A stretch of DNA of 64,000 bases from Actinomyces sp. oral taxon 414. GTDB lineage: Bacteria > Actinomycetota > Actinomycetes > Actinomycetales > Actinomycetaceae. Below, one piece after another: positions 1,327-38,410 of the stretch. Both the position numbers and the translations under genes were made by a program. The stretch covers positions 1,364,001 through 1,428,000 of the forward strand of contig NZ_CP012590.1 in NCBI RefSeq assembly GCF_001278845.1, given 5' to 3'. The stretch's first letter is position 1. Each line of letters starts with the position of its first letter. The notes under the pieces are model-generated. The model was given only the letters and a program-made list of their open reading frames with translations, ran no database searches and was not told the DNA's origin.

Positions 1327-3330
1327 TCACACGACGCGGAGGGTGACCGTCGATCCCCTGCGCACGCTGGTGCCCGCCGCCGGGTCGGTGGACAGCGACG
1401 AGATGAAGGGGATGCCGAAGACGTGCTCGATCTTGACCACCAGGCCCGCGGCCTCCAGCGCGGCGACGGCCTCGTCCTGCTTCATGGAGCTCACGTCCGG
1501 CACCGTGACCATCTCCGAGCCCTTGGAGACGACAATGCTGACCGAGTCGCCGTAGAAGCCGGAGGCCCCGGCCGCCGGGTTGGAGGAGATGACCTTGCCG
1601 CTCTCGACGCTGTCGGAGTAGTCCTCCGTGGTGGTGCCCACGACCAGGCCGGCCTTGCGCAGCGCGGCGGTCGCGTCCGCCACGGTCATGCCCCTGACAT
1701 CGGGCACCGTGGCGGGGCGGCGCCCCTTGGAGACGACCAGGGCGACGGCGGAGGAGTGGTTAATGCTCTGCCCGGCCTTCGGGTCGGAGGAGATGACCCT
1801 GCCGCTCTCGACGGTGGGGGAGTAGTCGTTCGTCACGGCCCCCACCGTCAGGCCGGCGCCGGTGATGGCGGTGCGCGCCTCCTGCTCGGTGCGCCCCACG
1901 ACGTCGGGCACCGTCTTCTGCTCCACGCCCCGGGAGATGACGGCGGTGACGGCCTGCCCGATCGGTATGGCCGTGCCGGTCGGCGGCTTGCAGGAGATGA
2001 CCGAGCCGGAGACCACGGTGTCGGAGTAGGCGCGGGTCGGGGTGCCCCACACCAGGCCCGCCCGCGTAATGGCGGATTGCGCCTCTTCCTGGGTCCGGCC
2101 GACGATCTCGGGCACCGCCACCCGGCGCCCGGGGCCGCTCAGGCGGTACCAGACGCCGGCCGCGACCCCGCCCAGCGCGACGAGCACCCCGGCGCCGACC
2201 AGGGTGCGCCTGCGGGCCAGAACGGTGCGGGCCGACTGGATGACCGTGGTCTTCTGGTCGTCGCCCAGGGCCTGGCGGTCCAGCGCCCGCGTCCTGGTGT
2301 CCGGGCCGATCGAGCCGATGGGCAGGGAGACGGTGCGCACGCCCGGGCTGGTCTGGCCCTGGTTCGCCTCCTCGCCGTCCCCGGGGGCGTCGGCGCGCAC
2401 CGCCTGGCGGGCGGCCTCCGCATTGGCGGCGAGCACCTCGAGGGTGCGCACGGACTCGGTGGCGCCGCCGCGCCTGGCGCTCAGCTCGGAGGGGCTGAGG
2501 CCGGCGACGACCTCCCGCAGGCGGGCGAGAGCCGCATCGGCGTCCTCCAGGCGCTCGTCCGCCTCGCGCCGGGTCATATCGGCCACGAGCCCGTCGACCT
2601 CGGCGGGCAGGCTCGGCACGAGGGACGAGGGGGCGGGGACGTCCTCGTGGACGTTGCGGAAGGCGATTTGGACGGGGGAGTCGGCGTTGAAGGGCTGCTC
2701 CCCGGTGAGAAGCTCGTAGAGGATGACGCCCACGGAGAAGACGTCGGCCCGCGGCGCGGAGTCGCCCGAGGTGATGAGCTCGGGGGCGAGGTAGGCGGCC
2801 GTGCCCATCACATTGCCCGTCGTCGTCTGGGCCACCTCCGTCACCGCCCGGGCGAGCCCGAAGTCGGCGACCTTGGCCACCGAGCCGTCGTCGGGCAGCA
2901 GCACGTTCTCGGGCTTGATGTCCCGGTGGACCAGGCCCGCCCGGTGCGCGGCCCCCAGGGGGCGCAGCACCTGCGCGGTCAGCCCCAGGGCCTCCTTGAC
3001 GCTCAGCGGCCCCGCGGCAATGAGGTCGCGCAGGTTGGGGCCCTCGACCAGCTCCATGACGAGGTAGGCGACGCCGTCGATGCTGCCCTGGTCGTAGACG
3101 GCCACGACCCCGGGGTTGGACAGGCGCGCCGCGGCGCGGGCCTCGCGCCGGAAGCGGGCGACGAAGTCGGGGGAGTCGGCCAGGTGCGGGTGCATCACCT
3201 TCAGGGCCACGCGCCGGTCCAGGCGCCGGTCCCGGGCGACGTAGACGGTGGCCATGCCGCCGCGGGCGACCCGGTCGACGATTTCGTAGCGAGAGTCGAC
3301 CAGCCGACCGAGGAGGGGATCCGTGACCAC
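1327..3330 (-). CDS. pknL: PASTA-domain Ser/Thr protein kinase (PknL-like)
   Basis: This is a membrane-anchored eukaryotic-type Ser/Thr kinase that would sense cell-wall material and phosphorylate division or wall-synthesis proteins. The 667-aa product has a glycine-rich loop ARGGMATVY, the ATP lysine near residue 44 (VALKVM), the catalytic loop HRDIKPEN near 135, DFG near 156 and GTAAYLAPE in the activation segment. A juxtamembrane linker, one transmembrane helix (about 376-396) and four C-terminal PASTA repeats (each with a VPD/VPE-type start) follow. It lies just downstream of a polyprenyl synthase gene on the same strand, as pknL lies near idsA2 in mycobacteria; that basis for the name is contextual. 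The GTG start at 3330 is preceded by TAGAAT at 3338-3343, so the transcript is probably leaderless. A second GTG follows three bases later. Confidence 0.92.
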   Translation of the reverse strand: MVTDPLLGRLVDSRYEIVDRVARGGMATVYVARDRRLDRRVALKVMHPHLADSPDFVARFRREARAAARLSNPGVVAVYDQGSIDGVAYLVMELVEGPNLRDLIAAGPLSVKEALGLTAQVLRPLGAAHRAGLVHRDIKPENVLLPDDGSVAKVADFGLARAVTEVAQTTTGNVMGTAAYLAPELITSGDSAPRADVFSVGVILYELLTGEQPFNADSPVQIAFRNVHEDVPAPSSLVPSLPAEVDGLVADMTRREADERLEDADAALARLREVVAGLSPSELSARRGGATESVRTLEVLAANAEAARQAVRADAPGDGEEANQGQTSPGVRTVSLPIGSIGPDTRTRALDRQALGDDQKTTVIQSARTVLARRRTLVGAGVLVALGGVAAGVWYRLSGPGRRVAVPEIVGRTQEEAQSAITRAGLVWGTPTRAYSDTVVSGSVISCKPPTGTAIPIGQAVTAVISRGVEQKTVPDVVGRTEQEARTAITGAGLTVGAVTNDYSPTVESGRVISSDPKAGQSINHSSAVALVVSKGRRPATVPDVRGMTVADATAALRKAGLVVGTTTEDYSDSVESGKVISSNPAAGASGFYGDSVSIVVSKGSEMVTVPDVSSMKQDEAVAALEAAGLVVKIEHVFGIPFISSLSTDPAAGTSVRRGSTVTLRVV

Positions 3331-10430: not shown

Positions 10431-10626
10431 CAGAGGGAATGGGCCCTCCGGGCGAATCGCCGACAAGGGCCATGTGGGAAGGGGAATGATCGCCCTACAC
10501 AGGAAGCCCCTGACGGCGCACTGAGCGAGGCGGCGAAGGAGGCGAACAGGAGCGTCAACGGGAAGGTTATTCTGGGGTATCTGCGTGGTGCGGGTGGGGC
10601 TCCTGTGGCGACCCGGGGTGGGGTCG

Positions 10627-10746
10627 TGTCCAAATCTGCCACAAAGGCGCCCCGGGCCGGGATCGGTCGCGGATAAAACCGCGGAATATCAACGATTCTC
10701 TTCCGGTGTTTCGGCTCGACCGAGGCCTTTGTGGCAGATTTGGACA
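10627..10746. repeat. 120-bp element with 22-bp terminal inverted repeats, copy A
   Basis: The ends are TGTCCAAATCTGCCACAAAG(GC) and its exact complement. The interior holds CGCGGAATATCAACGATT, which in reverse complement matches the second copy at 29260-29379. Both copies are exactly 120 bp, and recognisable similarity continues about 50 bp beyond each end. This copy lies between the convergent GNAT and parC genes. No transposase is present. It resembles a MITE or a REP/BIME-like palindromic unit. Confidence 0.85.
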
Positions 10747-10930
10747 ACTGGCGCCGCCGCGGGCCCTGTGGGGAGGGCGTCGCCCGCCTCGGCGAGGTCC
10801 ATGACCCCAACACCGGCGCGGGCACCCGCGCGGAGGGCGGTCGCGGACCGGGCGGGCGCCCCGTTCGACCGCGCCGGCCCCGCCCGAGCACCACCCGAGC
10901 CCCGCCCGGCCCCGCGCAGGCGCCCCGATC

Positions 10931-13877: not shown

Positions 13878-14510
13878 ATGAGCAGTCGGACGCCGCCCCC
13901 GCCCCGCCCAGTCCCGGCCGGGTCCGCCGATGAACCCGCCTCCGGGTCCGTCGCGGCGGCCCTGGGCGAGGACGTGGCCCGCGCCGGCTACTACCCCGAG
14001 CTCGTCGCCGGCTGCCTGGAGGTGGCCCTGGCGGGTGAGGAGCCGGTGGCGCACCTGGTCCAGGCGGAAACGAGCTTCGCCGACGCCGTCCACCGGCACC
14101 TGACCGTCCTGGCCCTGACCCCCGGCCGCCTCATTATCGTCCACGTCGACGACGCCGCCCTGGAGGACGGGGTGCCCGGGGCGGTGGCCACCAGCGAGGC
14201 CGTGCCCGTGCGGCGCATCTCCTCCCTGGCGCTGAGCCGGGGGGTGGCCCGGCCCGCCGCGGGCGGGGGACGCCTGGTCGAGATGACCATCGCCATCTCC
14301 TGGGGGGCGGTGCGCCGCCTGGACCTGGAGCCCGCCTCCTGCCCCGACCCCGCCTGCCAGGCCGACCACGGCCTGACCGGCACCTCGGTGCCCGACGACA
14401 TCGTCGTGCGCGTGGCCGCCGGGGTCGAGGGCGACGAGGCCCTGGAGCGGGCCGAGGCCTTCGCCCGGGCCCTGTCGCGGGCCACGGCCCGTTCGGCGGT
14501 GGACGCGTGA
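13878..14510 (+). CDS. DUF5998 family protein
   Basis: This 210-aa protein is of unknown function and belongs to a family found between parC and an alkaline phosphatase-like gene in many actinobacteria. The middle contains a beta-strand-rich core (RHLTVLALTPGRLIIVHVDD, SLALSRGVA) followed by a strand that includes ISWGAVRRLDLEPASC. The short DPACQADHGL near the C-terminus contains a Cys and a His. The ATG at 13878 follows a CATGAT at 13866-13871 by 6 nt. It overlaps the next gene by 4 bp (GTGA), so the two are translationally coupled. No enzymatic motif is visible. Confidence 0.8.
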   Translation: MSSRTPPPPRPVPAGSADEPASGSVAAALGEDVARAGYYPELVAGCLEVALAGEEPVAHLVQAETSFADAVHRHLTVLALTPGRLIIVHVDDAALEDGVPGAVATSEAVPVRRISSLALSRGVARPAAGGGRLVEMTIAISWGAVRRLDLEPASCPDPACQADHGLTGTSVPDDIVVRVAAGVEGDEALERAEAFARALSRATARSAVDA

Positions 14511-15817
14511 ACCCGCCCGAGCTGAGGCTGGTCCTGGGCGCCGCCGCCGCGGGCGCGGGCCTGGCTCTGGCGCCGGCGGGCGTCCCGGACACGCTCGACG
14601 ACGCCGCCGCGCGCCAGACCGCCGCCGCCTGGGGCCTGCTGGAGGACCCCGGCCGGGACCCGCGGCGCGGGGGCGGCCTCGTCGTCGTCCTTGTCGACGG
14701 CCTGGGCCTGGAGCTGCTGCGCGAGCGCCGGGGCCACGCCCCCACGCTGCGCTCCTGGCTGACGGAGGCGGAGAACGGGCCCGGCCCGGGCCCGCGGGCC
14801 CTCACCTGCCTGCCCACCACGACGGCGGCGGCCCTGACGACGCTGGGCACCGGCGCCCTCCCGGGAGTGACGGGCGTCGTCGGCTACAGCGTCCTGACGC
14901 CCCGGATCGACCGCGCCCGGCTCATGTCCGGCCCGCCCGGCCCGAGCCGCATCCTGTGCCTGATCACCTGGGAGGGCGGCGACGCCCCCGACCCGGCCGC
15001 CTGGCAGGACGTGCCCACTATCTTCGAGCGCCTGCGCCGGCCCGACGATCCCGCCGCCGCGGGCGGTGCCGGGCCCGCCGCGGCCGACGCACCCGACGCG
15101 GCCGACGGGCGCCCCGGGGCGCTCGCGGTGACGATCGGACCGGCCCGTTTCGCCGGCTCCGGCCTGACCCGCGCCGCCCTGCGCGGCTGCCCCCACCTGG
15201 GCGCCGACCGCATGGAGGACCGCCCCGCCCTGGCGGCGGGGGCCCTGCGCCGCGGCACGCCCCTGGTCTACCTCTACGTCGGCGAGCTCGACCACGCCGG
15301 GCACCTCCACGGCTGGCGCTCGACGCAGTGGCTGGACCAGCTGGAGCGGCTGGACGCGGCCATGGCGGAACTGGCCCGTCGGGTCCCCGCCGGGACCCGG
15401 ATCGTCTTGACCGCGGACCACGGCATGGTCGACACCGGCCCGGACCGGCGCGTGGACGTCACCGCCCACCCCGAGCTGGCCCGCGACGTCGTGGCCGTAG
15501 CGGGCGAGCCCCGCTTCACCCAGCTCTACGTGCCCGGCTCCGACCCGGAGGTCGCCGCGCGGGTGGCCGGGCGGTGGCGCGACCTGCTGGGGGAGCGGGC
15601 CGCGTGGGTGGGCACCCCCGACGAGGCCCCCGCCGGCCTGGGGCCGATCGGGCCGCGGGCGCGCGGCGTCCTGGGCGACGTCCTGGTCGCTATGGACGGG
15701 AACTGGGTCGTGGTGGACCCGCGGGTCCACAGCCCCGCGGCGATCGCCATGCCCGGCGTCCACGGCTCGGTCACGACTGCGGAGAGGGACGTGCCCCTGC
15801 TCCTGGCCGGCGCCTGA
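14507..15817 (+). CDS. Alkaline-phosphatase-superfamily protein (nucleotide pyrophosphatase-like)
   Basis: This 436-aa metal-dependent hydrolase has the alkaline phosphatase/NPP fold. It shows LVVVLVDGLGLELL (first metal Asp), the nucleophile threonine in TCLPTTTAAALTTLGTG, the metal ligands in LYVGELDHAGHLHGW, TADHGMVDT, and a final VHGSVT. No signal peptide or membrane helix is obvious, so it is probably cytoplasmic. It begins with GTG overlapping the DUF5998 stop (GTGA). It could hydrolyse phosphodiesters or nucleotides; the substrate cannot be assigned. Confidence 0.85.
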   Translation: MNPPELRLVLGAAAAGAGLALAPAGVPDTLDDAAARQTAAAWGLLEDPGRDPRRGGGLVVVLVDGLGLELLRERRGHAPTLRSWLTEAENGPGPGPRALTCLPTTTAAALTTLGTGALPGVTGVVGYSVLTPRIDRARLMSGPPGPSRILCLITWEGGDAPDPAAWQDVPTIFERLRRPDDPAAAGGAGPAAADAPDAADGRPGALAVTIGPARFAGSGLTRAALRGCPHLGADRMEDRPALAAGALRRGTPLVYLYVGELDHAGHLHGWRSTQWLDQLERLDAAMAELARRVPAGTRIVLTADHGMVDTGPDRRVDVTAHPELARDVVAVAGEPRFTQLYVPGSDPEVAARVAGRWRDLLGERAAWVGTPDEAPAGLGPIGPRARGVLGDVLVAMDGNWVVVDPRVHSPAAIAMPGVHGSVTTAERDVPLLLAGA

Positions 15818-15848
15818 GTCCGGCCGGTCCCTGAGTCCGGCCGGTCCC

Positions 15849-16094
15849 TCACTCGGACTCGGGGCGGGCGCCGAAGACGATCTCGTCCCAGGTGGGCACG
15901 GGGCGGCGCTGGTGGCCCTGGGACGGGGTCTTGGAGGCCCTGTCGGGGCGCACGGGTATGGGGATCACCTGCGCCATCCGCGGCTGCTCGGGCTGCTCAC
16001 GGGGGGAGGTCCGGGGCTCCGCCCCGTCCGCCTCCATGGGATCGGCCCCGGGCTCGTCGTCATTCCTGCGCGGGGCGTCGTAGTCGCTCGCCAT
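15849..16094 (-). CDS. 81-aa chimeric mini-protein: DUF4193 N-terminus joined to SepH C-terminal motif
   Basis: The first residues, MASDYDAPRRNDDEPGAD, nearly repeat the start of the DUF4193 protein encoded at 17539 (MATDYDAPRKNDDEPEAD). The last residues, HQRRPVPTWDEIVFGARPE, nearly repeat the SepH C-terminus (HQRRPVPTWDDILFGARPE), and a middle piece (PRTSPREQ) matches SepH PRTSPRGQ. The homology is also seen in DNA. The upstream leader (TGAGCGCCGCATCGACT and the GAAGAGAGTGA before the ATG) copies the DUF4193 leader, and the end copies the sepH 3' end. The frame is intact, and the gene sits 60 nt downstream of sepH on the same strand, so it may be co-transcribed. It may be a functional mini-protein or merely a duplication scar. 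Confidence 0.65.
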   Translation of the reverse strand: MASDYDAPRRNDDEPGADPMEADGAEPRTSPREQPEQPRMAQVIPIPVRPDRASKTPSQGHQRRPVPTWDEIVFGARPESE

Positions 16095-16154
16095 GACTCA
16101 TCACTCTCTTCTTGTCTCTTCTTGTTTCTTGTCGGCGACAAGTCGATGCGGCGC

Positions 16155-17282
16155 TCACTCGGGGCGGGCGCCGAAGAGGATATCGTCCCAGGTGGGCACG
16201 GGGCGGCGCTGGTGCCGCCGGGACGGGAACTCGGAGACCGCGGGGGGCCGGGACGTGCGCGCCGGCGCCTTGGGATCGGGGGCTCCGGCGTCGGGCGCCG
16301 CCTGCGCGTCGGCGTCGGTCGCCGGCGCGGGGGAGGGGGCCGACGGCGCGGAGGCGGCGGCGCGGCCCCGGCGGGCCCCCGCGGAGTACATGGAGGCTCG
16401 CCGGCGCTCGGACATGGAGACCACCTGCGCCTGCCCGCGGGGGGAGGTCCGGGGCGCCGGCTCGGAGGGGGCGCCGGCGCTGGCGAACTGCTCCAAGTCC
16501 TCGTCGTCCTCCATCGGGAGATCGACCCCGACGCGCTGGCCGCGGCTGGAGGCGAGGTTGGCCAGCAGGGCGTCGGTGGAGGAGTCCTCCATGAGCGCGC
16601 GCTCGGGGTCGTCGGGATCGTCGGGATCGTCCTCGCCGGGCGGCGGAGCGAGGTGCCGGGGCCCGGCGGAGGCGGTGCGCGCCGAGGAGTCCTGGTCGAA
16701 GACCTCCGGCAGGCGCTGACCGGCGGCCTCGGTCAACCACCGCGACTCGTCGTCGAGGGCGCTGACCGAGCGCGCCGCGAGGTCCAGCACCCAGCTGGCG
16801 TGCTTCTCCTCGGCGCCCTGGACGAAGGTCAGGTTCACCTGCCAGGGCTCGCGCCCCTCGCGCGAGGCGTCCCAGGTGAGACTGGAGGGTTCGACGCCGC
16901 GGGTGGCCAGGCGGTCGATGACGAGCTCGCCCAGCACCGGGGAGTCCTTCTCCCAGCCGATGCGGCAGGCCTGGGCCTGCTCCACCGCCCAGCGGCGCTC
17001 GGCCAGGACGGGGCCCTCGAAACGCCGTACGTGGTTGACGTCCATACCCGTGGACTGGGCGACCTCCTCGGCGCTGGCCCCGGCGCGCATGAGCGCCTGC
17101 AGGGCGCGGGGCCGCAGGTTGCCGTCGGAGGGGATCTCGGACGCGGGGGAGAGGGCGGCGGGCCCGGCCCGGCGCACCGCGGCGCGCAGGGCGTCGTCGA
17201 CGACGATGCTGTACCGCTGGCCGTCCTGGTCCGTCATGACGATGCGGTCGCCGTTGCCCCCCAGCAGTTCGAGCTCGATCAT
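16155..17282 (-). CDS. sepH: Cell-division regulator SepH (DUF3071)
   Basis: SepH is an actinobacterial protein that binds FtsZ and promotes its assembly and Z-ring formation. The 375-aa product has the N-terminal DUF3071 region (MIELELLGGNGDRIVM), a helix-turn-helix near 65-85 (MRAGASAEEVAQSTGMDVNH), and WAVEQAQACRIGWEKDSPVLGELV. A long disordered Asp/Pro/Ala-rich linker leads to the conserved C-terminal motif RRPVPTWDDILFG. The ATG at 17282 has GAAGGAGG upstream. It is divergent from DUF4193, as in many actinobacteria. Directly downstream lies the chimeric mini-gene that repeats this C-terminus. Confidence 0.92.
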   Translation of the reverse strand: MIELELLGGNGDRIVMTDQDGQRYSIVVDDALRAAVRRAGPAALSPASEIPSDGNLRPRALQALMRAGASAEEVAQSTGMDVNHVRRFEGPVLAERRWAVEQAQACRIGWEKDSPVLGELVIDRLATRGVEPSSLTWDASREGREPWQVNLTFVQGAEEKHASWVLDLAARSVSALDDESRWLTEAAGQRLPEVFDQDSSARTASAGPRHLAPPPGEDDPDDPDDPERALMEDSSTDALLANLASSRGQRVGVDLPMEDDEDLEQFASAGAPSEPAPRTSPRGQAQVVSMSERRRASMYSAGARRGRAAASAPSAPSPAPATDADAQAAPDAGAPDPKAPARTSRPPAVSEFPSRRHQRRPVPTWDDILFGARPE

Positions 17283-17390
17283 GGGGTGGGGCCTCCTTCA
17301 ATCCCTGCTTCGGACCTCAGCGTGCCACCTGCTGCGCCGCAGTCAAGGGAGGTGTCCCGGTGTGCCCCATGAATCGGGTCTCGGAATCTA

Positions 17391-17419
17391 TTCACGATCG
17401 GCCCTCGTGGTGCTATTGT
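17391..17419 (+). promoter_or_regulatory. Promoter for the DUF4193 operon
   Basis: The -35 TTCACG (17391-17396) and -10 TATTGT (17414-17419) are 17 bp apart, and a TG precedes the -10 by one base (extended -10). This gives a leader of about 110 nt before the ATG at 17539. Confidence 0.6.
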
Positions 17420-17538
17420 GCGCGTGCCCTGCTCGAAGGGACGATCCGGCAGCTCCTGTGTCCCGGGCCGCCCCCGGTGGCCGCCCCGCCGCCTGAGCGC
17501 CGCATCGACTGCCGCCGACGAGAAGAGAGTGACGAGCC

Positions 17539-17844
17539 ATGGCGACCGACTACGACGCACCGCGTAAGAATGACGATGAGCCCGAGGCCGATTCCATCGA
17601 GGAGCTCACCGCTCGTCAGAAGGATCACTCCTCCGACGCCATCGAGGAGGACGAGAATGAGGTCGCCGAGGGCTTCGAGCTGCCCGGGGCGGACCTGTCG
17701 CGCGAGGAGCTGAGCGTGCACGTCGTGCCCCAGCTCGACGACGAGTTCACCTGCTCGGAGTGCTTCCTCGTCCACCACCGCAGTCAGCTCGCCTATATCG
17801 ACGAGGCCACCGGGCTGCCGGTGTGCACCGACTGCGCCGGCTAA
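17539..17844 (+). CDS. DUF4193 zinc-ribbon protein
   Basis: This 101-aa acidic protein is conserved next to sepH in actinobacteria. The N-terminal 55 residues are charged and probably disordered (MATDYDAPRKNDDEPEAD). The C-terminal part has CSECFLVHHRSQ and CTDCAG, two CxxC knuckles expected to bind zinc. The family resembles RbpA-neighbourhood zinc ribbons, but no role is established. A GAAGAGAGTGA precedes the ATG. The 5' end of this gene, including its leader, was duplicated into the chimeric gene at 15849-16094. Confidence 0.9.
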   Translation: MATDYDAPRKNDDEPEADSIEELTARQKDHSSDAIEEDENEVAEGFELPGADLSREELSVHVVPQLDDEFTCSECFLVHHRSQLAYIDEATGLPVCTDCAG

Positions 17845-28634: not shown

Positions 28635-28730
28635 GGGTCGGCCCGGAGCCGGCCCGGCGGTCCGGCGGCCCGACGCCCCAGCGGGTCGGCGTCCCGGCGG
28701 TCCGGCGTCCCGGCGCCCGCCGACCTACAC

Positions 28731-28922
28731 CGACACCCCAGCGCCCCGGTGTCCCGACGCCCCGGGGAGAGTCGAATTGGTGATGTCACCTCAGCTCACA
28801 TCGTGCGAGCTGAGCTCGCACGAATCGAGCTCAGGTGGATTTTGTCGAGCTGAGCTCACATCGTGCGAGCTGAGCTCACATCGTGCGAGCTGAGGTGGAT
28901 TTCGGCGAGCTGAGCTCGCATT
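28731..28922. repeat. Left arm of a 1-kb inverted repeat
   Basis: From CGACACCCCAGCGCCCCGGT through a series of GAGCTGAGCTCACATCGTGC units, this arm is the reverse complement of 29582-29753 at about 95% identity. The arm holds one extra 20-bp unit compared with the right arm. The units are rich in GAGCTC/AGCTCA palindromes. The rest of the acnA downstream gap (28635-28730) is GC-rich with short CGGTCCGGCG(T/C)CC-type repeats. Confidence 0.88.
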
Positions 28923-29020
28923 GAGCCCTTCTCGCCGGAAGCGGCGGCCTGGAGGCCGAGGTCGTCGTGGACCGCGGGGTCGTCGTCGCGGTCCACGGTG
29001 GCTGCGGCCGGCCCCTTCCT

Positions 29021-29379: not shown

Positions 29380-29581
29380 CGCTCCCGCCCCGGATCGTCC
29401 CAGGAGTCCCACCAGCACCACGCCGCGCCCGTCCATCCCCCATACTGCGCCGACCCGGGCTCCTGAGCCGCCGGTTCTGGTGAGGTGAGGCTCGTTGAGT
29501 CTTTCTCGTCGGGGGAGTCCGGAGCGGAGTCTTCAGAGGTGATGCGGGTCGGAGCCGGCGCATGCCGAGCCCGGATCACGC

Positions 29582-29753
29582 GATGTGAGCTCAGCTTGCT
29601 GAAATCCACCTCAGCTCGCACGATGTGAGCTCAGCTTGACAAAATCTACCTGAGCTCGATTCGTGCGAGCTCAGCTTGCACAATGTGAGCTGAGGTGACA
29701 TCACCAATTCGACTCTCCCCGGGGCGTCGGGACACCGGGGCGCTGGGGTGTCG
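29582..29753. repeat. Right arm of the 1-kb inverted repeat
   Basis: This is the reverse complement of 28731-28922, ending at CGCTGGGGTGTCG. It includes the mirror of the block GTCGAATTGGTGATGTCACC that precedes the GAGCTC-rich units in the left arm. It ends 42 bp before the stop of the response regulator gene. Confidence 0.88.
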
Positions 29754-29794
29754 GGGGCGCCGGGGCGGGACGCTGGGGCGTCCTCGCCTCCCGC

Positions 29795-34354: not shown

Positions 34355-34971
34355 GCCTTAATGCATCTACAGGTGCGCGGTGCTCCCTGACATTATCTCG
34401 GACGGCGCCCGCAGCGCAGTCCGTCTGTCTCAATGTACCTACAGGTGCGTGGTGCTCCCTGACCAAGGCCTGGACATCCGTCCTGAAGGCCGACGACCAG
34501 TCTCAATGCATCTACAGGTGCGTGGTGCTCCCTGACACTTGCACTGGACAACCCCGGAGAGACCGTACGCGTGTCTCAATGCACCTACAGGTGCGTGGTG
34601 CTCCCTGACCCTGGTCAAAGTAGACCGCGGCCGCAAGGTCGTGTGTCTCAATGCACCTACAGGTGCGTGGTGCTCCCTGACCCGTCGTCAGCCACGCGTA
34701 TACGTGGTATGCCATGTCGTCTCAATGCACCTACAGGTGCGTGGTGCTCCCTGACTGGCTGGCGTCGCCGGTCTCATCACCGGCATCAATGTCTCAATGC
34801 ACCTACAGGTGCGTGGTGCTCCCTGACGCGCGCCAGTTTCACTCGGGGTTTGGTCTTTTTTGTCTCAATGCACCTACAGGTGCGTGGTGCTCCCTGACTA
34901 CGCCGGCGACGGCGGACGAAGCCCTCCAAATCTTGTCTCAATGCACCTACAGGTGCGTGGTGCTCCCTGAC
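34355..34971 (-). CRISPR. Orphan CRISPR array: 9 repeats, 8 spacers
   Basis: Repeats of 37 nt start at 34355, 34427, 34500, 34573, 34645, 34719, 34791, 34862 and 34935; spacers are 34-37 nt and all different. On the plus strand the repeat starts GTCTCAATGC and ends GTGGTGCTCCCTGAC, with a small GCACCT/AGGTGC stem. Read on the minus strand it ends ATTGAGAC, the usual end that leaves an 8-nt crRNA 5' handle in class 1 systems, so transcription is probably right to left. The first repeat (34355-34391) has about four mismatches, as expected at the trailer end. No cas gene lies in the window, so the type is unassigned. Confidence 0.95.
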
Positions 34972-35747
34972 CCCTGCTCTCGGGAGTGGCGGTATGACGC
35001 CACTTCGAGGGCCCGGAGCGCCACCGGCCCCGGGAGCACCCCTGCGGACCGGCCAGCACCGGGCTCAGACTAGCACATAGTGGCGGAATCACGCCAAGCG
35101 CCACCGACGGCCCTCCAAGCCCTCCGCGCGCCAACTTTCAACCAGGTCATGCGGAAAAGTCGGTGTCGGAGCGCCATCTTGCAAACATGTAACATGACAC
35201 CCTGTTCACTATACTGCCCCACCAGCCACAACAGCACCTCCAGTACCAATCGGGTCGACCTCGCCGAGGCCGCCCCGCACCCCGACCGGACACGACATGC
35301 CCCCTCGCCCGACCGGGACAAGCACGGGCTCCCAACCGGCCCGGCGGACCGGAATGAGCCCTCACATCGAATATTCTGCGCGCCGAGAAGATTGTTCTCA
35401 AAACGTCTGGACTCATTCGCGAGTAACCACCCTCCTCGCGGCGACCAAGAACCTGCGTCAGAGACCGTCGCGCCCGTCCAACAATATCCTGATGTGCGCA
35501 TATCCATCGAAATACAACACGGCTCTTCTCAGGATAATCTTGAGACGGGTCTAGGTCAAGCCTCTTGGCGTGGCATAGATCCGGTCAAGGCTTGGGAGTG
35601 CTGGGTCGTCTACTGCGACACACCCCATTACTACGTCACTAGCGAGCCTTCTCGCTAGGTGTCGTGGTCCGTGGGCCCGGGTCAGCGCGGTGACGGGGAC
35701 GGGCGGGCGCGGCGATTACCCCGGCCCCCGGCCCGCCCCGCCCCCGA
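34972..35747. other. Candidate CRISPR leader and lower-GC DNA without a recognised gene
   Basis: The first ~90 bp may be the leader of the array read right to left. The part 35090-35660 is clearly less GC-rich than the rest of the window, which hints at transferred or decayed DNA. Open frames occur on both strands (for example 35070-35507 minus and 35080-35658 plus), but none has a good start, codon pattern or recognisable motif. A perfect 8-bp stem, CTAGCGAG-CCTT-CTCGCTAG, lies at 35639-35658. Confidence 0.5.
35067..35097 (-). promoter_or_regulatory. Candidate promoter of the CRISPR array
   Basis: On the minus strand TTGGCG (35092-35097) is followed after 19 bp by TAGTCT (35067-35072), with TG one base before the latter (extended -10). 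Transcription would start near 35060 and enter the array about 90 nt later. Confidence 0.35.
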
Positions 35748-35822
35748 CGCCGAAACGTGCACTTTGCACTCGAGCGGGCACTTTTAACTGCACCTCTCGA
35801 GAGCAAAATGCACATCTCGACG
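35748..35822. repeat. 75-bp palindromic element, copy 3
   Basis: This copy has the same orientation as copy 1, about 60/75 identical, with conserved ends (CGCCGAAACGTGCAC ... TCTCGACG) and most changes in the centre. It lies 150 bp downstream of the stop of the 812-aa gene. The DNA from 35823 to 35971 shows nothing else. Confidence 0.8.
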
Positions 35823-35971
35823 AGCACAGAGCCGACTCGGGAGCGCCCGCCCCGCCGAAACCGACCGGTGTACGGCAGTCCGTCAGGCCAGCACCCACAG
35901 CGTGCCCGCCGGCACGACGACTTCGGCCGTATCCGCTGCGCCCGCCGGCCCCGCCGGGCGCCCCGCCCGGC

Positions 35972-38410
35972 CTACTTCGCGCCGGGACGGTAGGCGGTGA
36001 GCTCGCCGTCACTGGTTTCGCGGGCCACGATGAGCTCGGGATTGACGAGGTAGAAGACGGTTCCGCTGTCGAAATCGTTGCCGGGGAAATCGATGGTCTC
36101 ACCGTCCTTGACGGTCCATGCGCCGCTGATCCACATGCCCGTGGACGTGCTCGTCGGGTCGGCGGACACGCGCATGAGCACCGACTCGTTCGAGGACAGG
36201 GAGTACAGGACGATGCCGTCCGGTTCGTAGCAGCTGCCCGAGTCGTTGACCGGTTTAAAGGTCGACTCGCCGATCGTGAGCTTGGTCGGGCAGTCGCTGC
36301 TCGAGTTCCTGGTGCGGGTGATCTTGATCTTCGCCCAGCTGAGGTCCTTGTCCTGGATGAAGGACTTGAATTCGGCCGCAGTCAGGCGGGGGTGGTCCAG
36401 GGTGGCTGCGGCGCTGACGTCCTCCGGGTAATCCCCGTTGAAGGTGTCGCGCTTCTCGCCGGTGGGAGACAGGATTGTGAACTGCTCCTTCTCGTAGTTG
36501 TACTTGCACCAACCGTCGGCCAGGGCGAAAACGATCTCCGAACGGGTCGTGTCGAAGTCGTAGATCTCGCCGGTGATCACGTCGATCCAGGTACTCTCGG
36601 CGGCCTGCACGATGAGCTTGCCGTTCCCCTGGTAAACGGATCCGTTTAGGGAGGGAATATCCTGGAAGTCGGAGCTGCCGGAGACGTTGGTCTTCCACAG
36701 CTCCTGGTTCGGTTTCGCGGCGCTCCAGCCGGTGCACAGGTCCTTACTGCCGCAGGAGAAGGCGTAGTCGCCGACGATGATGGGGTTCTTGTGCCAGGGA
36801 GCGTCGGTGGTCTCGCCGGTGTCGGCCTTGATAAGCATGTCTCCGATGACGACGTACTCGCCCCAGTAGGACAGGTAGAAGGAATCGGTGTGGGGATTCG
36901 TGGACCACTGCTTCTTGGGCTTGTCGCCGGAGACGTCGTAGGCGGACACCGTCGTGATCGTGTAGTCCGAGTCCATGTCGGCGACGACGAGCTGGTCCTT
37001 GTTGCCAATGAATATCGACCGTTCATCGATATCCATGTCCCAGACCTTGTGGGCGCCCTCCGCCCAGCTGTTGGAGGGGGCGGTGGATCCGTTCGCGGAG
37101 TCTCCGCGCAGCAGGTGCATCCCCAGCACGACCGCACCGCTGATGACAAGAACGGCGACGAGGACGACGACCGTGATGATGACGGGCCGTGAGACCCGCC
37201 GTCGCGGCGGCGCGGGGGCGGCGGGCGGCGGCTGCGGCGGGGCCATCTGCGGAGCCGCCGCGGTGTATCCGGCGGCCTGCGGCCCCGGGACCACGAAGTT
37301 CCCCGAGGCTGGCGTGCCCGCCCCGGGCGGTAGCGCCGGCAGGGAGCTGGGCGCCGAGGCCGCGACCGGTGCGGAGTACACGGCTGGCGCTGCGGCGCCG
37401 GTCGGGGGAGGCGGCGCTGGGACAGCGACCAGCGGCGCCGATGGCGCCGAGGGTGTCGGGGGAGGCGGCGCCGATGCGGCCGGGGGAGGCGGCACCGGGG
37501 CGGTCGGGGGAGGCGGGGGCATCGGCGTCCCGGGGTGCGCGAAGCGTGCCGCGAGGGCAGCATGGACCGCGGGGTCCTCGGATTGCCGCAGCCAGTCCAC
37601 GAGACCCGGGGACGTCGACGGGTTCGTCGCGAGGACGGCGTGCAGGTCGGGCCGGTAGGTGGCGATGCGGGCCAGCTCGGCGGCGGGGGTCAGGGGGGAG
37701 GCGGCGGCGTCGGCATCAGCATCGGCGGTGGTGTCGCCGTTGCTGTCAGCAGCATCGCCGTCGGTGTCGTTGCTGGCGGTGCTGGTGTCGGCGTCGGCGT
37801 CGCTGTCAGCGGTGTCGCCGTCGCTGTCGGTGGTCTCGGCGGCGTCGGCGTTGGCATCGTCATCGGTATCGGCGGTGCTAACGGCGTCGCTGTCAGCGGT
37901 GTCGCCGTCGCTGTCGATGGTCTCGCCAGCGTCACCGTCGCTGTCATCAGCATCACCGTCGTCGGTGTCGTCGCTGGCGGTGCTGGTGTCGGCGTCGGCG
38001 TCGCTGTCAGCGGTGTCGCCGTCGGTGTCGTCGCTGGCGGTGCTGACGGCAGTGTCGCCAGCATTGCTGTCGGTGGTCTCGGCGGCGTCGGCGTTGGCAT
38101 CGTCATCGGTATCGGCGGTGCTAACGGCGTCGCTGTCAGCGGTGTCGCCGTCGCTGTCGATGGTCTCGCCAGCGTCACCGTCGCTGTCATCAGCATCACC
38201 GTCGTCGGTGTCGTCGCTGGCAGTGCTGGTGTCGGCGTCGGCGGTGCTGACGGCGGTGTCGTCGCCAGCATCGTCGGTGTCGGCGTCAATAGCGGCGGGG
38301 GTCGGGGGAGAGGCGGCGTCGGCGCCGGCGTCAACCGCGGTGTCGGCGTCAACCGCGGTGTCGGCGTCGTCGTCAGGAGAAAGGGCCGAGGAGGGCGGCG
38401 GAGTGCTCAT
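35972..38410 (-). CDS. Large membrane protein: Asp/Ala/Thr repeat region, leucine-rich-repeat variant domain, TM helix, propeller-like exterior
   Basis: The 812-aa product has four parts. Residues 1 to about 235 are a low-complexity Asp/Ala/Thr/Ser region built of long tandem repeats. About 238-290 is one variant-leucine-rich-repeat module (LARIATYRPDLHAVLATNPS). A Pro/Ala-rich linker (about 290-400) follows, then a single transmembrane helix near 405-432 (PVIITVVVLVAVLVISGAVV). The C-terminal 380 residues are beta-rich with Trp-containing blade-like repeats (HKVWDMDIDERSIFIGN, WSTNPHTDSFYLSYWGEY, KTNVSGSSDFQDIPSLNGS) and would lie outside. Proteins with this LRV-linker-TM-propeller plan are common in Actinomyces, with unknown function. 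TACCTT on the minus strand (38417-38422) ends 6 nt before the ATG. The C-terminal part is less GC-rich than neighbouring genes. Confidence 0.75.
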   Translation of the reverse strand: MSTPPPSSALSPDDDADTAVDADTAVDAGADAASPPTPAAIDADTDDAGDDTAVSTADADTSTASDDTDDGDADDSDGDAGETIDSDGDTADSDAVSTADTDDDANADAAETTDSNAGDTAVSTASDDTDGDTADSDADADTSTASDDTDDGDADDSDGDAGETIDSDGDTADSDAVSTADTDDDANADAAETTDSDGDTADSDADADTSTASNDTDGDAADSNGDTTADADADAAASPLTPAAELARIATYRPDLHAVLATNPSTSPGLVDWLRQSEDPAVHAALAARFAHPGTPMPPPPPTAPVPPPPAASAPPPPTPSAPSAPLVAVPAPPPPTGAAAPAVYSAPVAASAPSSLPALPPGAGTPASGNFVVPGPQAAGYTAAAPQMAPPQPPPAAPAPPRRRVSRPVIITVVVLVAVLVISGAVVLGMHLLRGDSANGSTAPSNSWAEGAHKVWDMDIDERSIFIGNKDQLVVADMDSDYTITTVSAYDVSGDKPKKQWSTNPHTDSFYLSYWGEYVVIGDMLIKADTGETTDAPWHKNPIIVGDYAFSCGSKDLCTGWSAAKPNQELWKTNVSGSSDFQDIPSLNGSVYQGNGKLIVQAAESTWIDVITGEIYDFDTTRSEIVFALADGWCKYNYEKEQFTILSPTGEKRDTFNGDYPEDVSAAATLDHPRLTAAEFKSFIQDKDLSWAKIKITRTRNSSSDCPTKLTIGESTFKPVNDSGSCYEPDGIVLYSLSSNESVLMRVSADPTSTSTGMWISGAWTVKDGETIDFPGNDFDSGTVFYLVNPELIVARETSDGELTAYRPGAK
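37781..38260 (-). repeat. Long tandem repeat (about 243-bp units) inside the 812-aa gene
   Basis: The phrase TGCTGGTGTCGGCGTCGGCG recurs at 37781, 37981 and 38224, and longer blocks match with a 243-bp period (for example 37861 with 38104, and 37921 with 38164). The unit starting at 37781 is about 43 bp shorter. Units encode about 81 residues rich in Asp, Ala, Thr and Ser. Copy number could change without breaking the frame when whole units are gained or lost. Confidence 0.8.

Follow-up and report, generated by a model that had tools for sequence, protein, structure and literature searches.

A short mosaic reading frame downstream of sepH in Actinomyces sp. oral taxon 414: a candidate microprotein carrying the SepH C-terminal motif

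Introduction

Directly after sepH in Actinomyces sp. oral taxon 414 lies a short open reading frame that begins like a neighbouring DUF4193 gene and ends like SepH itself. Is it a gene assembled from pieces of its neighbours, or the trace of a duplication that happens to be open? We addressed this question in a window of 64,000 nucleotides (contig NZ_CP012590.1, positions 1,364,001 to 1,428,000), in which a first-pass annotation had described the frame as a DUF4193/SepH chimera and suggested that its product could act as a competitor or regulator, a role that is a reasonable guess. If real, the gene would document how a new protein is put together from parts of two adjacent genes inside a single genus, and the sister species would serve as its empty-site control.

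According to the parts of PMC7968930 drawn on here, the DUF3071 half of S. venezuelae SepH binds FtsZ and the C-terminal half does not. Of the separate halves, the C-terminal one behaved as a tetramer, the N-terminal one as a dimer; in vivo the C-terminal half was diffuse and did not complement a sepH deletion. The same parts of the paper report two elements in all SepH homologues analysed, a K/R-rich patch of four residues and, far towards the C-terminus, a string of 10 residues, with no function assigned to them as of 2021 (PMC7968930); we take these to be the R-rich patch and P[ST]WDEIVFG of our own analysis. The main text of that paper contains no match for Actinomyces, paralog or DUF4193; among the later papers listed, none names a function for the conserved tail; and open-licence PMC papers, searched by wording other than the exact phrase, gave no report of tail-only SepH proteins. 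Proteins that keep only this tail offer a direct handle on it, their partner being likely that of the tail.

Results

The reading frame is a mosaic of two neighbouring genes

Comparison with the surrounding genes confirms the frame as a mosaic of the DUF4193 start and pieces of the sepH 3' end (Table 1). Its start region forms an inverted repeat with the DUF4193 start (16031-16116 and 17517-17602; 86 nt at 87% identity), and its tail forms a direct repeat with the sepH 3' end (15857-15950 and 16157-16250; 94 nt at 85%). A blastn search of a three-sequence database, made up of both donors plus the sister, gave best E-values of 6e-23 for DUF4193 and 3e-24 for sepH. The DUF4193-like leader and start, the SepH-like end and the PRTSPR match in the middle, all reported in the first-pass annotation, are borne out by these repeats. 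The chimeric assignment needed one refinement: the DUF4193 share ends at about codon 18 (GAD), and everything from PME onward aligns to SepH. This second part lacks most of the SepH linker and has internal gaps and one insertion relative to SepH, with the frame kept to the tail. Elsewhere in the same genome, beyond the two donors, only short matches were seen, at E 6e-4 or worse, among the 40 of 189 first-look candidates that were scored.

Table 1 Coordinates of the chimeric frame, its parts and its neighbours in the window.
Feature	Coordinates	Strand	Evidence or remark
Chimeric ORF, 81 codons plus stop	15849..16094	-	GC by codon position 0.74/0.56/0.95
DUF4193 leader copy with likely ribosome-binding region (GAAGAGAGTGA)	16095..16157	-	begins at sepH stop codon
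Codons 1-18 of chimera, DUF4193-derived	16041..16094	-	sequence comparison with donor
PRTSPR block, SepH-derived	15993..16026	-	direct repeat with 16431-16464, 85%, 34 nt
AQV block, SepH-derived (AQVIPIPVR vs AQVVSMSER)	15947..15975	-	direct repeat with 16403-16431, 83%, 29 nt
SepH C-terminal motif copy, 19 codons (HQRRPVPTWDEIVFGARPE)	15858..15914	-	0/57 chimera-only changes
17-nt tandem repeat	15793..15849	.	3' edge of chimera; overlaps phosphodiesterase gene end
sepH (DUF3071), tail donor	16155..17282	-	Pfam PF11268, E 3.2e-46; own motif WDDILFGARPE
DUF4193 leader, donor	17494..17538	+	repeat match to chimera leader
DUF4193 gene, donor of 5' end	17539..17844	+	Pfam PF13834, E 1.5e-39
Type I phosphodiesterase gene, convergent	14507..15817	+	Pfam PF01663, E 1.2e-28

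The frame starts 60 nt past the sepH stop codon on the same, minus, strand, where it had first been placed, and 1.4 kb from the DUF4193 start. It sits between sepH and a gene that is convergent with it; the latter was found as announced, with its earlier label of alkaline phosphatase now replaced by type I phosphodiesterase. The 17-nt leader TGAGCGCCGCATCGACT is present at 16141-16157 on the minus strand and at 17494-17510 on the plus strand, and the first TGA of the minus-strand copy is the sepH stop codon itself. Extra ACAAGAA-type units lie inside the leader copy.

The window holds further repeats. A CRISPR-like array occupies 34360-34973 with a period of about 73 nt and a repeat of about 37 nt (TGTCTCAATGCACCTACAGGTGCGTGGTGCTCCCTGAC), and a tandem repeat of 243 nt at 37823-38261 has 1.8 copies with 97% matches. 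A 198-nt inverted pair, made up of GAGCTGAGCTCACATCGTGC-type units of about 20 nt, lies at 28730-28927 and 29557-29754 (85% complementary); the 28.9-29.5 kb region is matched in part by other repeats of the window, near 1042-1155, 10583-10883 and 35647-35834.

The full chimera is confined to one genome of the genus

We searched 49 Actinomyces genomes, including the window's own, with the protein as query and, in the other 48, with tblastn of the sepH region. Related genomes, to which the first-pass annotation had looked for an ORF at this site, gave a divided answer: the full chimera is absent from all 48, sister A. dentalis included, and a separate ORF with copies of the SepH tail occupies the same site in one of them, G033. 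Among the matches listed, the other genomes match SepH and DUF4193 separately, and the tblastn results for the 48 sepH regions agree. Judged by this distribution, with absence from the 48 other genomes including the sister, the chimera is young and lineage-specific, present in one genome of 49.

The gap between the stop codons of sepH and the phosphodiesterase gene measures 337 nt in the window as against 41 nt in A. dentalis (G005). Across the 49 genomes the window and G033 (716 nt) have the two longest gaps, the other 47 ranging from 2 to 186 nt. In the alignable tail, the chimera has three codon states in common with the window sepH and not with A. dentalis, and the duplication therefore probably postdates the split from that species. 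In a wider collection of genome contigs, which may omit genomes very near the window's own, a scan returned 30 loci, every one with a single motif, in the SepH-matching frame.

Substitutions avoid the motif

A scripted, post hoc count over ungapped blocks of our own choosing set the chimera against its two donors, each taken from the window and from A. dentalis. By block, the changes seen only in the chimera come to 3 of 22 leader sites and 4 of 54 sites in DUF4193 codons; the two SepH linker blocks have 3/28 and 5/27, the stretch just before the motif 6/21, and the motif itself 0/57. Outside the motif this amounts to 21/152 against 0/57 inside (Fisher p 0.0013, post hoc), and the DUF4193-derived sites alone give 7/76 against the same 0/57 (p 0.020). 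Three of the four changes in DUF4193 codons alter the amino acid, and those beyond the motif are mostly non-synonymous. Since the changes fall outside the motif only and mostly alter amino acids, the body of the chimera looks unconstrained and the motif untouched.

The strongest rival to a functional gene is a neutral duplication scar, in which a young mosaic, left behind by template switching near sepH, is open by chance and has had no time to decay. An unconstrained body suits this explanation well, as do the absence of the chimera from every other genome of the genus and the local slippage visible in the expanded leader and the 17-nt tandem repeat. The even spread of substitutions expected of a scar is nevertheless contradicted by the counts of 21/152 and 0/57, post hoc and in chosen blocks as these are; the frame, moreover, is kept to the tail in spite of several indels, and G033 has separate tail copies at the same site. 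Weighing these points, we consider a plain scar a serious possibility, clearly below an even chance.

A scar could also show a clean motif if its tail was temporarily restored by gene conversion from sepH. The two similar tails are direct repeats 300 nt apart, and conversion before the two changes in the sepH motif could mimic what is seen. The copies, however, differ at two sites at which the chimera has the A. dentalis state, so that no conversion has run over those sites since sepH changed, and this variant appears improbable. With or without conversion, a neutral scar comes close to an even chance.

The parental motif (16158-16214) has itself drifted from WDEIVF to WDDILF by two non-synonymous changes, E to D and V to L. 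Both fall at positions with at least 90% conservation in an alignment of 27 SepH proteins, of which only the window SepH lacks WDEIVFG. This drift need not mean that the copy relieved the parent, because each change is also found by itself: two of the 49 genus tails read WDDIV, and other genera of the family have WDEIL. Between the intact sepH genes of the window and A. dentalis, the motif differs at 4/57 sites and the linker blocks at 1/28, 1/27 and 2/21, and the motif is therefore not the slower part in the parent.

Tail copies recur in a distant Actinomyces genome and in another family

A DNA pattern for WD[DE]I..F, run on 213 Actinomycetaceae genomes with the resulting table read by eye, gave at least one match in 204 and more than one in two, the window's own genome (2) and G033 (3). 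In G033 an ORF (L032:2327-3169) directly after sepH, in the 716-nt gap, holds two extra copies of the SepH motif. Their 24-nt core is identical to that of the G033 sepH and their flanks differ from it; this identity is less informative than it appears, because the 18-nt core spelling found in G033 is common across the genus. A search with this ORF matched 27 of the 49 genus genomes, nearly always in SepH tails. The ORF is coding-like in frame over 2327-3001 and extends into the antisense of the phosphodiesterase gene.

That the window chimera and the ORF of G033 share an ancestor was rejected as the likeliest reading, G033 being distant: best-segment amino acid identity to the window is 53% for its sepH and 63% for its phosphodiesterase, against 88% and 90% in A. 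dentalis. In the 42 of 49 gaps of at least 15 nt, the seven shorter ones being left out, similarity to the sepH tail or the DUF4193 start stood out only in the window and G033; each score in the other 40 was reached by at least 8 of 100 shuffles. We also set aside the idea that the G033 ORF took its start from DUF4193: the resemblance is suggestive and not significant. The score was reached by 6 of 100 shuffles, by 151 of 4492 anchored ATG contexts, a set that includes true DUF4193 starts, and by 121 of 13427 start contexts from which DUF4193 frames had been removed and in which frames overlapping DUF4193 starts remained.

With a wider pattern, 9 of the 49 genus genomes had at least two matches. 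Seven of these (G006, G013, G016, G017, G021, G032 and G042) owe the extra match to another word (TGGGAGGA...), situated away from sepH; the narrower WD[DE]I..F excludes such words. We ran another, narrow pattern on 394 genomes of the class, 85 of the family of G468 and 396 of the order, sets which overlap. Two-match genomes were G277 and G468 in the class, these two with G663 and G666 in the family, and G678 in the order; among those inspected, only G468, which belongs to another family, has a real extra motif. The extra matches of G277 and G666 lie in unrelated frames (LWDEIVFVAIQ), that of G663 comes from two SepH-like genes in an assembly 77% complete, and that of G678 is a fragment at a contig end next to a phosphodiesterase homologue. 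These rates are lower bounds, because the narrow pattern misses variants and inspection was limited to multi-match genomes.

The G468 protein (214 aa, L116:5725-6366) has no DUF3071 hit and ends in RRGRASVPTWDEIVFGLTHGDDASLRSQI; its gene is on a different contig from the sepH of that genome. At E <=0.01 it matches 62 of the 85 family genomes, nearly always in its own SepH-like tail. Two weak matches fall elsewhere (residues 73-148, E 3e-4; residues 48-109, E 0.008), and Pfam gives a sub-threshold hit only. We call it an orphan in the sense that it has no clear homologue.

Expression potential and predicted structure

The first-pass annotation held that retention of the frame over both donor parts argues against a scar. 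Taken alone, this argument proved weak: when single bases are shuffled at constant composition, 37% of the resulting sequences stay open over 81 codons (P=0.37), which is equally a point for the scar. Codon scores were positive in the chimera frame only, with a training set of five genes that includes both donors. The start region folds weakly, at -7.5 kcal/mol; the corresponding values are -11 for DUF4193, -20 for sepH, and -29 and -31 for two 70-nt stretches close by. Its composition accounts for this, 154 of 200 shuffles folding at least as well. A promoter and terminator scan of 15700-17700 returned no consensus site, and says little because it found none for sepH or DUF4193 either. No Rfam family reached its gathering score. 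Read-through from sepH would be the simplest source of a transcript.

The AlphaFold2 model of the window SepH (27 sequences; mean pLDDT 69.3, pTM 0.45) places the motif in a short helix at 365-370, the block 361-370 having a mean pLDDT of 83 in a tail otherwise mostly of low confidence. A second tail helix (235-246), of low confidence, has no counterpart in the chimera, and because this helix is missing the chimera product may not oligomerise. A search of solved structures gave one weak match to SepH (8vd6, E 7e-5, residues 59-90).

Discussion

We propose that the frame encodes a functional microprotein that displays the C-terminal motif of SepH and lacks its FtsZ-binding domain, a reading to which we give slightly less than an even chance. 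It is supported because the substitutions of the chimera avoid the motif and because a separate tail-copy ORF occupies the same site in G033. A recent local rearrangement after the split from A. dentalis would have set an inverted DUF4193 leader and about 18 codons before an internally shortened copy of the sepH 3' end, so that a small gene arose immediately after sepH, in the same orientation. We infer its transcription, translation, binding partner and effect as follows. Ribosomes would start at the region taken over from DUF4193, on the mRNA of sepH, and make a disordered microprotein in which nothing but the motif is conserved; the motif would then work in trans on the binding partner of the SepH tail. 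By the simplest route the product would enter SepH oligomers and tune the strength of SepH assembly on FtsZ; alternatively, the free tail would compete for the partner of the tail. Either is conceivable because, in the parts of PMC7968930 used here, the C-terminal half is a tetramer, and because the motif is predicted to be helical. An effect in trans is made less likely by the same source, where the C-terminal half is diffuse and inert in FtsZ assays (PMC7968930).

Two further alternatives fare worse than the scar. The insert might act not as protein but through its RNA or the distance it adds, for instance by buffering the convergent sepH and phosphodiesterase genes from each other; its position and the two insert-bearing gaps being the longest of 49 would agree with this, while the lack of a terminator-like site or of an Rfam family at gathering score, together with the coding-like composition, makes it very improbable. 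An assembly artefact, although the region carries repeats, is hardly credible in a genome that is a single contig of 100% estimated completeness, with copies diverged from each other as a mis-joined identical repeat would not be.

Returning to the microprotein, a bolder extension, which we think unlikely, would make the SepH tail a portable binding module, repeatedly released beside sepH (in the window species and separately in G033) and grafted onto the G468 orphan protein. In the window species the copy would then have taken over the consensus motif with the SepH motif drifting, a nascent division of labour.

How does the chimera compare with known proteins? The G033 ORF resembles it in its site after sepH, its SepH motif copies, the lack of a DUF3071 hit and an acidic proline-rich linker; it differs in having two motifs, neither at the C-terminus, and a DUF4193-like start that is not significant. 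With SepH the chimera shares the R-rich patch and P[ST]WDEIVFG (QRRPVPTWDEIVFGARPE), and the earlier statement that the motif is kept without the N-terminal domain holds: the motif is conserved, there is no DUF3071 match by hmmscan up to E 10, and the FtsZ-binding helix-turn-helix is thereby missing too. With DUF4193 it shares the leader, the likely ribosome-binding region and the first 18 or so codons; its match to PF13834 (16.7 bits, cutoff 25) covers residues 1-24 only, and the remainder of the domain is missing, the CSEC and CTDC cysteines with it. By these sequence measures the chimera is neither a SepH, having no DUF3071, nor a DUF4193 protein, falling below the Pfam cutoff. MicroProteins (miPs) are small proteins that derive from part of a larger one and act on the partners of the parent. 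MciZ, a small regulator of FtsZ, is not known to derive from a divisome protein. The chimera, which keeps a single parental motif without the catalytic or effector domain of the parent and would work, if at all, in the manner of a miP, would be a putative microProtein.
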